From Streptacidiphilus jiangxiensis (GTDB lineage Bacteria; Actinomycetota; Actinomycetes; Streptomycetales; Streptomycetaceae): a stretch of 64,000 bases of DNA. Positions 13,127 to 16,773 of the stretch are shown piece after piece. The stretch's first letter is position 1; each line of letters opens with the position of its first letter. The translations under genes and the position numbers were made by a program. The notes under the pieces are model-generated. The model had not been told where the DNA came from, searched no databases, and was given only the letters and a program-made list of their open reading frames with translations. The stretch lies in NCBI RefSeq assembly GCF_900109465.1, contig NZ_FOAZ01000024.1, positions 1-64,000 on the forward strand. The letters run 5' to 3'.

Positions 13127-13972
13127 TCAGAAGGCCGGAATGACCGCGCCCGAGAAGGTCTGGTCGATGTACTGCTTGACCTGCGGGGAGTGCAGCAGCT
13201 CGGCCAGCTTCTTGACGCGCGGGTCGTTCTGCTCGCCCTTCTTGACGGCGAGGATGTTGGCGTAGGGGTTGTCCTGCGCCTTCTCCAGCAGCAGCGCGTC
13301 CTTCTTCGGGTTCAGCTTGGCGTCGAGCGCGTAGTTTCCGTTGATGACGGCCGCGTCGACGTCGCTGAGGGTGCGCGGCAGCTGGGCCGCGTCGATCTCC
13401 TGGAACTTCAGGTGCTTGGGGTTGTCCGTGATGTCGTCCGGGGTCGCCTCGAGGCCGGCGCCGCTCTTCAGCTTGATCAGGCCGTTGGCCGCCAGCAGGT
13501 CGAGCGCGCGGCCCTCGTTGGTGGCGTCGTTCGGGACGGCGACGGTGGCGCCGTCGGCGAGGGCGGCGACGGACTTCACCTTGCTCGAGTACAGGCCCAG
13601 CGGCTCCAGGTGGACGGTCTCGACGGAGACGATGTCGGTGCCGTGGGTCTTGTTGAAGTCGTCCAGGTAGGGCTGGTGCTGGAAGTAGTTGGCGTCGGCG
13701 GAGCCGTCCTGGACCGCGGTGTTGGGCGTGACGTAGTCGGTCACGACCTTGACCTGCAGGTTCAGGCCGGCCTTGGCGGCCAGGTTCTTCTGGATGTACT
13801 CGAGGATCTGCGCGTGCGGGGTGGGGCTCGCGACGACGACCAGCGGCTTGCTCGCGTCGTTGGACGAGCTTCCGGAGGACGAGGTCGACGAGGAGGAGCC
13901 GCAGGCGGCCAGGGTGAGGGCCAGCGCGGAGGTCGCGAGGGTGGCGGTGGTGAACTTCACGGAGGTGCGCAC
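13127..13972 (-). CDS. metQ: Methionine ABC transporter substrate-binding lipoprotein
   Basis: A 281-residue NlpA/MetQ-family lipoprotein. The signal peptide ends in the lipobox LAAC with Cys24 as the acylated residue, followed by a serine-rich linker. The mature domain has VVVASPTPHAQILEYIQ, the YFQHQPYLDDFN segment, VAVPNDATNEGRAL, and VINGNYALDAKLNPKKDA, all characteristic of methionine-binding MetQ. It delivers L- or D-methionine to MetI/MetN at the membrane. The GTG start at 13972 is preferred because it gives the basic n-region MRTSVKF; a second GTG at 13960 is possible. It follows metI by 35 bp and is the last gene of the operon. Confidence 0.95.
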   Translation of the reverse strand: MRTSVKFTTATLATSALALTLAACGSSSSTSSSGSSSNDASKPLVVVASPTPHAQILEYIQKNLAAKAGLNLQVKVVTDYVTPNTAVQDGSADANYFQHQPYLDDFNKTHGTDIVSVETVHLEPLGLYSSKVKSVAALADGATVAVPNDATNEGRALDLLAANGLIKLKSGAGLEATPDDITDNPKHLKFQEIDAAQLPRTLSDVDAAVINGNYALDAKLNPKKDALLLEKAQDNPYANILAVKKGEQNDPRVKKLAELLHSPQVKQYIDQTFSGAVIPAF

Positions 13973-14007: not shown

Positions 14008-14778
14008 TCAGACGCGGGTGGAGCCGGTGAGCTCCGGTTCCCGCGCGGGGGTCTCCGCGGCCTTGGGGGCGGCGGAAATCTGGGGGGTGACCCGGCGTCG
14101 GAACGTCCGGCGGGTGGCGGGTCGCTTGTGGTCGAGGCTGCGGGCGAGGCCCTCGCCGACCAGTTGGACGAGCGTCACGAGGACGACCAGCTCGGCCGCG
14201 ATGACCCACATGAAGGTGGTCTCGAAGCGCATGTAGCCGTAGTTGATGGCCAGGGTGCCGAGCCCGCCGCCGCCGACCGTGCCGGCCATGGCCGAGTAGC
14301 CGATCAGCGCGATGACGGTGGTGGTGAGCGACGAGACGAGCGCGGGCAGCGCCTCGGGCAGCAGGACCCTGCGGACGACCGTCCAGGTCGAGCCGCCCAT
14401 GGCCTGGACGGCCTCGACCAGTCCGCCGTCGACGTCGGCGACGGCGGTCTCGACGAGCCGGGCGAAGAAGGGGATCGCGCCGATGGCCAGCGGCACGGTC
14501 GCGGCCTGCCAGCCGAGCGTGGTCCCGACGACCCAGCGGGTGAACGGGATGATCGCCACGATCAGGATGACGAAGGGCAGCGAGCGCCCGACGTTCACGA
14601 CCGTGCCGACGGCCTTGTTGACCGGCGCGTTCTGCAGCAGGCCGTCGCGCCGGGTGAGCGCGAGCAACAGGCCGAGCGGGAGGCCGACCAGGACGGTGGC
14701 GAGGGTGGCCAGGCCGACCATCCACAGCGTCTCCTGGGTGGCCTGCACCAGCAGCGGCTGCATGTCGTTCCATCCCAT
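14008..14778 (-). CDS. metI: Methionine ABC transporter permease
   Basis: A 256-residue permease with five predicted membrane helices. The EAA loop EAVQAMGGSTWTVVRRVLLPEALP couples to the ATPase. The start ATG at 14778 overlaps the metN stop codon (TGATG) and is preceded by GGGAG inside metN, so translation is probably coupled. The in-frame upstream extension lies within the 3' end of metN and is not needed. The basic C-terminal tail ends in a Pro/Glu-rich stretch after the last helix. Confidence 0.95.
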   Translation of the reverse strand: MGWNDMQPLLVQATQETLWMVGLATLATVLVGLPLGLLLALTRRDGLLQNAPVNKAVGTVVNVGRSLPFVILIVAIIPFTRWVVGTTLGWQAATVPLAIGAIPFFARLVETAVADVDGGLVEAVQAMGGSTWTVVRRVLLPEALPALVSSLTTTVIALIGYSAMAGTVGGGGLGTLAINYGYMRFETTFMWVIAAELVVLVTLVQLVGEGLARSLDHKRPATRRTFRRRVTPQISAAPKAAETPAREPELTGSTRV

Positions 14779-15887
14779 CAGGCCGCTCCCTCGGCTCGTG
14801 CTCCGGCTCGGCTTCGCTCCGGCCGGGTGCCGACTCCGGTCGTGCCTCGCTGCGTCGACCCCCAACCTGCGCTGCGCCTCGACTCCGCACTCGCAATCAC
14901 CTCCACCTGGAGGCCCTGCTCGCGCAGGTAGCCGATCGGGACGACGTTCTCCTCGAAGCTGCCGGGCAGCGAGACGCGCATCCGGCCGACCTGGCGGCCG
15001 CCGACGGTCTCGACGGCGGCGCCGATGATGCTGACGTCGACGTTGTAGGTGCGGGCCAGCTGGGAGATGAACGGCTGGGCCGTCGCGTCGCCCTGGAAGG
15101 TGATGTCGACGACGGTGCTGCCCTGCAGCGGCTCGCCCTCGCCCAGCGGGAAGAGCTCGCGGGCGAGCTCGGAGCCGGGCTGCTCCAGCAGCTCGGTGAG
15201 TGTGCCGGACTCGACCACGCGGCCGGCCCGCATCAGCGCGGCGGAGTCGCAGACGGACTTGATGACGTCCATCTCGTGGGTGATCAGCAGGATGGTGAGG
15301 CCGAGCTGCCGGTTGAGGTCGCGCAGCAGTTGGAGGACGGAGCGGGTGGTCTCCGGGTCCAGCGCGGAGGTCGCCTCGTCGGAGAGCAGCACCTTGGGGT
15401 CGCCGGCCAGGGCGCGGGCGATGCCGACGCGCTGCTTCTGACCGCCGGAGAGCTGCGCCGGGTAGGCCTTGGCCTTGTCGGCGAGGCCGACCAGGTCCAG
15501 CAGCTCGGCGACCCTGGCGGCACGCTCGCGTCGCGTCAGGCCGCTGAGCTCCAGCGGCAGTTCGACGTTCTCGGCCACCGTGCGACGGGCGAGGAGGTTG
15601 AAGTGCTGGAAGACCATGCCGATGGAGCGGCGGGTCTCGCGCAGCTCGGCGGGCGAGAGCGCGGTCAGCTCGCGGCCGTCGACCCGGACGCTGCCGGAGC
15701 TGGGGCGCTCCAGCAGGTTGACGCAGCGGATGAGGGTGGACTTGCCGGCGCCGCTGGTGCCGACGACGCCGTAGACCTCGCCCTGGCGGACGTGCAGGTC
15801 GACTCCGTCGAGTGCGGCGATCTCCGGATTCGAGCCGGGGCGGCCCTGGGCGCGGTAGACCTTACGCAGGTCAGAGGTGGTGATCAC
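14778..15887 (-). CDS. metN: Methionine ABC transporter ATP-binding protein
   Basis: A 369-residue ATPase with Walker A GTSGAGKST (43-51), signature LSGGQKQRVGIARAL and Walker B VLLSDEATSALDP. A C-terminal NIL/ACT-like regulatory domain (about residues 260-335) is where MetN binds methionine for feedback inhibition. About 35 further residues (SRRSAGWGSTQRGTTGVG onward) are low complexity, Arg/Gly/Ala-rich and beyond the usual family length. They may be a late addition. The GTG start at 15887 has only a weak upstream site (GGAAAC), fitting control from the leader. A cysteine-rich leader ORF and a hairpin lie between promoter and start. Confidence 0.95.
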   Translation of the reverse strand: MITTSDLRKVYRAQGRPGSNPEIAALDGVDLHVRQGEVYGVVGTSGAGKSTLIRCVNLLERPSSGSVRVDGRELTALSPAELRETRRSIGMVFQHFNLLARRTVAENVELPLELSGLTRRERAARVAELLDLVGLADKAKAYPAQLSGGQKQRVGIARALAGDPKVLLSDEATSALDPETTRSVLQLLRDLNRQLGLTILLITHEMDVIKSVCDSAALMRAGRVVESGTLTELLEQPGSELARELFPLGEGEPLQGSTVVDITFQGDATAQPFISQLARTYNVDVSIIGAAVETVGGRQVGRMRVSLPGSFEENVVPIGYLREQGLQVEVIASAESRRSAGWGSTQRGTTGVGTRPERSRAGARAEGAA

Positions 15888-15911
15888 AGTGTTTCCGTGG
15901 GTCGGCGCGCG

Positions 15912-15929
15912 CAGCCGTCACTGCGGCTG
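15912..15929 (-). promoter_or_regulatory. Hairpin in metN leader, 3' of the leader ORF
   Basis: CAGCCG at 15912-15917 pairs with CGGCTG at 15924-15929 around a 6-base loop. It lies 24 bp upstream of the metN start and 73 bp beyond the leader ORF stop. It could be an attenuation structure or could control access to the weak metN ribosome binding site. Confidence 0.4.
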
Positions 15930-16002
15930 GTTCACGCGGGAAGGGTGTGCGGAACGGCCCGGAGCGAGGCTCGACGGGCGCGGTGGTGCTGGGCGGAAGG
16001 GC

Positions 16003-16044
16003 TCAGCAGCCGCACATTCGACAACAGCGCATCATGCTGCGCAT
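16003..16044 (-). CDS. Cysteine-rich leader peptide upstream of metNIQ (13 aa)
   Basis: A 14-codon ORF reads MRSMMRCCRMCGC-stop, with four Cys and four Met in 13 residues. It starts with ATG at 16044. CAGGTGG about ten bases upstream is a plausible ribosome binding site. It ends 115 bp before metN. A sulfur-amino-acid-rich ORF ahead of a methionine uptake operon is the expected architecture for translation-dependent attenuation: stalling at Cys (or Met) codons changes leader RNA folding. Poly-cysteine upstream ORFs regulating sulfur genes are known in mycobacteria. Whether this one acts in that way is inference. The peptide could also be a small metal- or thiol-reactive product. Confidence 0.65.
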   Translation of the reverse strand: MRSMMRCCRMCGC

Positions 16045-16100
16045 GCCACGACCACCTGCCGGCATCGCGCCGGTGATGTGGGTGTGCGTGGTCGTCGTCA

Positions 16101-16125
16101 TGGACCACAGTTAAACAGATGGTCC
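16101..16125. promoter_or_regulatory. Inverted repeat in the metNIQ promoter region
   Basis: TGGACCA (16101-16107) and TGGTCC (16120-16125) are inverted around an AT-rich core containing AGTTAAAC. On the minus strand TTGGGT near 16133-16138 and TTAACT near 16109-16114 could be weak -35/-10 elements, placing the start of transcription about 50 bases upstream of the leader ORF. Candidate repressor site; the regulator is unknown. Confidence 0.4.
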
Positions 16126-16214
16126 GCAGATCACCCAAAAGGGACGTTCACACTGTGAGACGACTCATGGGACGAAGGCCGGGAAACCGAAGGGGCGCCT
16201 GGGAGGACCGGGAT

Positions 16215-16255
16215 CGCGCCGCCCCGCGAACGTGGGGAGAGCCCGGGGCGGCGCG
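16215..16255 (-). terminator. Terminator of the second GNAT gene
   Basis: CGCGCCGCCCC at 16215-16225 and GGGGCGGCGCG at 16245-16255 form a perfect 11-bp stem with a 19-base loop, starting five bases after the GNAT stop codon. It should insulate metNIQ from upstream transcription. Confidence 0.8.
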
Positions 16256-16260
16256 AGACG

Positions 16261-16773
16261 TCACGCGATCGCGGCGAACCGGTCGAGCGCCGGTTCGGTC
16301 CGCTTCTCCAGCACGATGAAGCTGAGCTTGCTGTTGACCTCCTCCACCTGCGTCTGGCGGTAGCCGAGGCGCTGGTAGAGACGCAGGTTGCCGAGGCTGC
16401 GGTGCCCGGTGAACAGCCGGTACCCGACGATCACCGTGCCGTCGGCGGCGAGCTGCTGCTCCATCGCGCGCAGCAGCCGACTGCCGAGCCCGTGCCGCTG
16501 CATCCGCGGGTGGACCATCAGCCGGCCGATCCGGCCCACGCCGTCGTCGTCGACCCGACCGCGCACGCTGCCCACGATCTCGTCACCCAGTCGGGCGACC
16601 AGCACGTGATGCTCCTTCAGTTCCGACCGCATGCTGTCCAGCGTCTGGGTCAGCGGGTCGATGGACCAGTCGCCGTAGAGCTCGGCCTCGCCCTGGTAGC
16701 ACAGGAACTGCAGCTTCAGGATCCGCTCGGCGTCGTCCTCGGTGGCCACCGAGGTGGTCACGCTCATGCCCAC
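16261..16773 (-). CDS. GNAT-family N-acetyltransferase
   Basis: A 170-residue acetyltransferase with the standard GNAT core: VLVARLGDEIVGSVRGRV, IGRLMVHPRMQRHGLGSRLL (acetyl-CoA pyrophosphate loop, R/Q-x-x-G-x-G/A variant) and GNLRLYQRLGYRQTQ near the C-terminus. The GTG at 16773 is chosen because AGGGAGG lies about six bases upstream; ATG at 16767 is the alternative. The substrate is unknown. It is divergent from the FAD monooxygenase, and the shared region holds the palindrome at 16942. Confidence 0.87.
   Translation of the reverse strand: MGMSVTTSVATEDDAERILKLQFLCYQGEAELYGDWSIDPLTQTLDSMRSELKEHHVLVARLGDEIVGSVRGRVDDDGVGRIGRLMVHPRMQRHGLGSRLLRAMEQQLAADGTVIVGYRLFTGHRSLGNLRLYQRLGYRQTQVEEVNSKLSFIVLEKRTEPALDRFAAIA

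Follow-up and report, generated by a model that had tools for sequence, protein, structure and literature searches.

The closest described counterpart of the leader treated here is metL (SLIV_29928), which precedes metNIQ in Streptomyces lividans TK24, was reported, on the basis of RNA-seq, to be leaderless and was described as rich in methionine and threonine, with its termination unclear (PMC8079986). Related short reading frames are the leaderless polycysteine ORFs of mycobacteria, which are Cys-rich near their stop codon and lie ahead of sulfur genes (PMC9031893, PMC9094748), and candidates for which are listed in PMC4633059. A survey from 2005 presented Cys leader peptides at mycobacterial cys operons and at cbs of P. 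acnes and B. longum and, in its accessible portions, no conserved RNA structure ahead of actinobacterial methionine operons (PMC1262725).

The window, a stretch of 64,000 nucleotides from Streptacidiphilus jiangxiensis, carries a leader of this kind directly upstream of metNIQ and on the same strand. As far as the accessible text of these reports goes, it resembles metL in its place before metNIQ, its presumably leaderless start and the lack of a typical Rho-independent terminator, and its end CCRMCGC can be likened to the C-terminal ending CMCRRMC of metL; the N-terminus and the precise CCRMCGC end are different, and the GCCCCGAA hairpin described below is missing (PMC8079986). With the mycobacterial polycysteine ORFs it shares the presumed leaderless character, the cysteines near the stop and the sulfur genes that follow, but its run mixes Cys, Arg, Met and Cys codons, the genes downstream encode a methionine transporter, and the spacer among the related loci measures 96-359 nt (PMC9031893, PMC9094748). 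The Cys leader peptides of the 2005 survey likewise have Cys codons near the stop and no terminator hairpin that was found, but belong to other genes (PMC1262725). The LEU element of actinobacterial leuA is similar in its leader codons, in a possible pseudoknot and in control codons that might pair close to the ribosome binding site; it differs in amino acid and sequence, and for the present leader such a pairing at the ribosome binding site is no more than a candidate (PMC1262725). The Streptomyces trp and leuS attenuators also hold their control codons within a short leader, but no terminator-like site was seen here (PMC1262725, PMC8079986).

The leader itself is already published as S. lividans metL, in an account whose accessible text does not treat conservation, RNA structure and Cys codons (PMC8079986). 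In the open-access literature, covered as titles, beginnings of abstracts and passages, no description was found of its spread, its Cys codons, the constraint at the RNA level, the junction or the hairpin. The locus would offer a defined and testable control of methionine uptake in actinobacteria, antibiotic producers included, together with a leader ORF which appears to be maintained at the level of nucleotides and not as a peptide, and an additional RNA motif without a match among the families of Rfam 15.

The leader and the metNIQ genes

The initial annotation had described a 13-codon ORF with its own ribosome binding site at 16003..16044 of the minus strand, on which all features given below are located. 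It reads ATG CGC AGC ATG ATG CGC TGT TGT CGA ATG TGC GGC TGC TGA (16044-16003) and has four Cys and four Met codons, its own ATG counted. While its sequence, position and Cys/Met codons were confirmed, the start codon and the attached ribosome binding site were not: the conserved start is an in-frame ATG at 16101, 57 nt upstream, in favour of which the ATG at 16044 was dropped. The Shine-Dalgarno sequence proposed for 16044 would therefore fall inside the ORF, and the 13 codons form the C-terminal part of a longer, metL-type upstream ORF (uORF; 16003..16101) of 32 codons, MTTTTHTHITGAMPAGGRGMRSMMRCCRMCGC, with the stop TGA. Its ATG is placed 7 nt after the -10 box TTAACT (16109..16114) of a presumed leaderless promoter, and because of this spacing the window leader is probably translated without a 5' leader. 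Scored with a hexamer list drawn up after the sequences had been seen, 87 of 92 loci have a -10-like hexamer that ends 6 or 7 nt upstream of the leader ATG; a single further offset was seen within the 40 nt inspected. The window leader thus has the -10 box 6-7 nt 5' of the AUG and the ending C-R-M-C-x-x-stop that mark the metL type. Sequence, codon counts and pattern matches delimit a putative control-codon run, TGT TGT CGA ATG TGC GGC TGC, at 16006..16026.

The GTG-started metN (14778..15887) begins 115 nt downstream of the uORF stop; TIGR02314 was its best match with 383.1 bits, below the cut-off of 499.7, and the MetN of the window has an additional C-terminal tail. It is followed by metI (14008..14778; NF008049, 218.6 bits, above the cut-off of 212) and the lipoprotein gene metQ (13127..13972; PRK11063 and TIGR00363, both under cut-off). 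As the stop TGA of metN and the start ATG of metI share one base (14778-14780), these two genes are probably coupled. The ribosome binding site of metN is weak, as had been noted initially, and was read from the sequence as ACGGAA (15893..15898). Among 92 loci ACGGA occurs up to 19 nt from the metN start in 62, and GGA in all.

From relatives 136 stretches upstream of metN were taken; a metN start was found in 133, and the three lacking it (L063, L141, L142) were dropped. The leader is present in 89 of the 90 loci of the window's order (88 by a length-limited test, plus L062). Outside the order it is clear in three of 25 loci of one family (f19; L112-L114) and in none of 19 further loci. A looser test was passed by six of these 44 loci, clearly by the same three, and by none of the 44 on the reverse strand. 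L059 retains only the last codons, RMCRMCA before the stop, ahead of metN, and its promoter and the more 5' portion of its leader seem to have been replaced; this locus was omitted from most counts, yet is among the 92 loci of the hexamer count. L062, with a longer leader past the length limit of the hexamer count, enters the frame count only.

When the leader was located by nucleotide landmarks only, namely the -10 box with its AUG and the CGA-AUG of the control codons, a list likewise compiled after inspection of the sequences, all 92 loci that have both carry them in a single reading frame, which is open and reaches a stop soon afterwards; L059 has neither landmark and was left out. The distance from AUG to CGA-AUG takes 11 values between 66 and 135 nt, all of them multiples of three. 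This conservation of the frame is the main sequence-based evidence that the leader is translated. When the end of the leader was searched as an exact pattern in the genomes of 84,980 species, 37 stretches matched, 35 of them before metN: in 34 metN lies within 700 nt, in one (L189) it runs off the stretch, and two are unrelated. The expected conservation of the ORF ahead of metN in relatives was thereby borne out. Three Glycomyces, whose leaders end in CCRMCAC, and one Candidatus Stackebrandtia keep the same leader ending although their N-termini are unrelated; this suggests that it is the last codons of the leader that do the work.

Within the genus Streptacidiphilus metN was found in seven of 14 genomes by a match to the C-terminal part of MetN. 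The leader end, with up to two mismatches allowed, occurs in six of the seven genomes with metN and in none of the seven without; the seventh metN-bearing genome has the variant ending MCCRMCFGC (G004), and one extra match with two mismatches came from G006 (L163). The genomes in which metN was not matched (G001, G003, G005, G007, G009, G011 and G013, of which G007 is 76% complete) suggest a patchy distribution of methionine uptake. Leader start, control codons and stop are all kept in the Streptacidiphilus loci.

Several relatives (L015, L017, L018, L023-L026, L031, L033, L044, L112-L114), but not the window, have another small ORF between uORF and metN, whose last residues before the stop resemble RCRLAHDPQPPGTRC or HLLSHAPYPPGTC. 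Matches to a PPG ending numbered 16 in 92 loci, 13 of them like this ORF, and none on the reverse strand. Because of the PPG near the stop, the sequences suggest a further leader peptide, which might possibly stall.

Constraint on codons, nucleotides and RNA structure

Comparison of the loci establishes, at the level of sequence, the spacing of the promoter, the frame, the control codons, the constraint on the RNA, the Streptomyces-type structure and the link to metN. The comparison of synonymous with non-synonymous changes proposed in the initial annotation speaks against conservation of the peptide as such. Measured against the commonest codon, 33 Streptomyces-type leaders of the same length differ synonymously in 14 cases and non-synonymously in 104, as compared to 154 and 80 cases in metN codons 2-28 of the same species; five equal-length Streptacidiphilus leaders yielded 0 and 7, respectively. 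With synonymous differences few and non-synonymous ones many, the nucleotides including the free third positions are held and the amino acids drift. The codon 5' of the last ATG is the rare CGA in 89 of 91 leaders. Of the Arg codons in these 91 leaders 94 of 379 are CGA, compared with 55 of 1729 in metN of the same loci; for TGT the figures are 189 of 324 Cys codons in the leaders and 2 of 143 in metN. Counted from the stop, Met at -4 (84 of 91 leaders) is more constant than Cys at -3 or at -6 (70 of 91 each), Cys at -3 being missing from 21.

A structure alignment of 43 out of 52 candidate Streptomyces-type leaders (A3; nine were left out, mostly for long insertions) yielded a three-way junction within the ORF and a hairpin after the stop, together 31 pairs with 91.8% of the cells paired. 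Seven pairs show double changes. Not one of 500 shuffles attained the paired fraction, the double changes or the covariation score; further pair types, by contrast, were no more numerous than in shuffled alignments, 368 of 500 reaching their number. RNAalifold on a mixed set of 41 of the 91 leaders returned 6 pairs only, because the subgroups of leaders differ. The post-stop hairpin, CTCGC-GCCCCGAA-GCGAG, is found in 65 of 91 loci directly after the leader stop (for example L082:686-809); its stem varies to CCCGC/GCGGG, and to GCCGC/GCGGC in Glycomyces and Stackebrandtia, and the loop stays the same except in L112, where A replaces G, and in L016 and L114, which have one additional C. An alignment of 18 distinct 20-nt forms (A5; the two 21-nt forms from L016 and L114 were dropped) had a covariation score reached by 0 of 500 shuffles and a count of double-change pairs reached by 50 of 500. 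In four loci of the same order (L036, L038, L048, L049) the GCCCCGAA hairpin is replaced by small hairpins which start at the stop codon and vary in their pairs (GAGTC/GACTC, GAGGC/GCCTC).

A pseudoknot of GGGY with the GCCCCGAA loop is possible. The aligned GGGY-loop pairs were 81.4% formed, the misses falling in rows with the stop shifted by one base, and GAGGGY follows the stop in all 65 loci with the hairpin and also in seven of 26 without. The combined pattern of GAGGGY and GCGCCCCGAAGC gave 38 matches in 61 genomes, of which, judged by their coordinates, 29 lie at metN and nine elsewhere; these nine do not have the CTCGC or CCCGC arm, so that in the 61 genomes the stem occurs only at metN loci. 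A covariance model of the Streptomyces-type RNA (R1) had matches with E no higher than 0.1 in 43 of the 61 genomes. The 20 best matches for which the locus was available are each followed by metN; several of the weak matches (E 0.01-0.1) are located at other sites.

The Streptomyces-type junction and GCCCCGAA hairpin were not found in the window, where R1 scored 11.7 bits (E 0.24, third among the window matches), and its own genome yielded no match; the hairpin is absent from all seven Streptacidiphilus loci. The predicted folds of this genus have other elements in common. The first is a stem within the uORF of ACGACCAC (16095-16088) with GTGGTCGT (16055-16048), the counterpart of which covaries in Streptomyces-type leaders. 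It encloses an inner hairpin CCGGC-GCGAT-GCCGG (16059..16073), and near the stop a further hairpin TGCTG ... CAGCA (15987..16008) is predicted. A long-range helix would join TGTGCGG of the control codons (16016-16010) to CCGCACA (15952-15946), which is present in six of the seven loci. Two more hairpins follow, GCCCG-TC-GAGC-CTC-GCTC-CGGGC (15957..15979) and one directly 5' of the metN ribosome binding site (15906..15938), which has no terminator-like site and includes the hairpin that was initially annotated at 15929-15912 and indeed reads CAGCCG-CAGTGA-CGGCTG. Compared with shuffles, the window uORF taken by itself shows no unusual stability (z +0.94) and the region as a whole only a slight gain (z -1.24); a 71-nt piece from the control codons to CCGC folds better (z -2.42, 3/200). 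With a stalled ribosome the alternative fold predicted for the window differs from the consensus fold of the genus.

Mode of control

Taken together, the spacing of the promoter, the reading frame, the codons and the constraint on the RNA agree with a uORF that senses sulfur amino acids through the position of the ribosome. That it is a ribosome-mediated, sulfur-amino-acid-sensing attenuator of metNIQ is the preferred reading, to which a probability of about 0.68 is assigned from the sequence comparison. Of the initial interpretation this retains a conserved, translated Cys/Met leader with no riboswitch match; start and Shine-Dalgarno sequence, conserved peptide and direct coupling were given up. 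Transcription would begin at the AUG of the leaderless uORF, which ribosomes would translate and whose RNA is able to fold. If Cys-tRNA or Met-tRNA ran low, a translating ribosome would wait on TGT TGT CGA ATG TGC GGC TGC before the stop, and its position would set the pairing of the control-codon RNA with the RNA after the stop and hence switch metNIQ on or off. The usual footprint of a ribosome reaches about 15 nt beyond the P-site codon. Judged from this footprint, a ribosome on the Cys before CGA would leave the post-stop RNA free and one at the stop would cover GGGY. Stalling of the ribosome, the step at which metNIQ is controlled and higher expression when sulfur is scarce are inferred.

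As to the output step, a slight preference goes to termination of the Rho type within the C-rich spacer, with control of metN initiation nearly as likely. In 89 of 90 loci the excess of C over G is greater in the spacer than in the DNA further upstream, which was counted for Rho; the Glycomyces spacer between uORF and metN, with 64 nt, is short for Rho and speaks against it as a general answer. The predicted accessibility of the metN Shine-Dalgarno sequence hardly changed with the place of the ribosome, being 0.475 free and 0.455-0.467 with a late ribosome in 91 loci, and 0.457 to 0.495 in the seven Streptacidiphilus loci; this near constancy speaks against a ribosome-dependent sequestration of the Shine-Dalgarno sequence. 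A classical transcription attenuator was discarded, as a simple scan of the window from 15800 to 16300 detected no intrinsic terminator with a U-tract. TTTT occurs in nine of 91 spacers.

More tentatively, and with odds clearly against it, the leaderless ORF might double as a structured sensor RNA for both Cys and Met, its first codons forming the three-way junction. TGT CGA ATG TGY would then be stalling signals and pairing strands at once, the GCCCCGAA hairpin with a GGGY pseudoknot just after the stop would read the position of the ribosome, and the element would have been preserved across the range from Streptomyces to Glycomyces, while Streptacidiphilus would have rebuilt it using different hairpins.

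Among alternatives to the ribosome-mediated attenuator, translational control of the type of the leuA LEU element, in which the control codons pair beside the metN Shine-Dalgarno sequence unless covered by a ribosome, is unlikely. In Streptomyces the complement of TGTCG-AAT-GTGCGC, namely GCGCAC-T-CGACA, lies immediately 5' of the Shine-Dalgarno sequence, and about 5 or more such pairs are expected in 31 of 41 free-state ensembles. However, a test in which control codons and ribosome binding sites were swapped was null (own pairing better in 42 of 91), the mean z was -0.9 over 91 loci with 24% at p below 0.05 and the Streptacidiphilus relatives of the window near zero, an uncompensated C-A mismatch occurs in 12 loci, and the insensitivity of accessibility to ribosome place described above weighs in the same direction.

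It is quite improbable that the mRNA 5' end is chiefly a ligand-binding RNA, a riboswitch through which the ORF passes and whose peptide matters little. The scarcity of synonymous changes in the leader, set against metN codons 2-28, and the three-way junction together with a hairpin of almost invariant loop would suit it. A frame held in 92 of 92 loci at 11 spacings, a promoter position which suits a leaderless AUG, and the Cys/Met ending that Glycomyces keeps despite an unrelated N-terminal part are arguments against it, as is the lack of an Rfam match. Over the whole window a tRNA was the sole Rfam match above gathering score; a relaxed scan of the leader region gave three sub-threshold matches, two to mir-486 and one to COG3860 RNA, which are taken as chance, and in ten related loci nothing matched the leader element. 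A known riboswitch was therefore rejected as identity of the leader, and the initial statement that there is no SAM riboswitch holds for these scans.

Direct translational coupling, as with the leaderless Cys-rich ORFs of mycobacteria, has very little probability left, although both kinds of leader are leaderless and Cys-rich and cysteine-dependent attenuation has been reported for mycobacteria (PMC9031893). In the coupled mycobacterial uORFs the stop overlaps or abuts the next start; from uORF stop to metN start there are 96-359 nt in 91 loci and 115 nt in the window, and the mycobacterial model invoked at first does not fit. A chance ORF without function is practically refuted by conservation, position and frame, even if the CRMC-coding pattern is barely commoner in the window's own genome than a control (12 versus 7 matches); one of these 12 matches, the one at metN, ends a short leader-like ORF.
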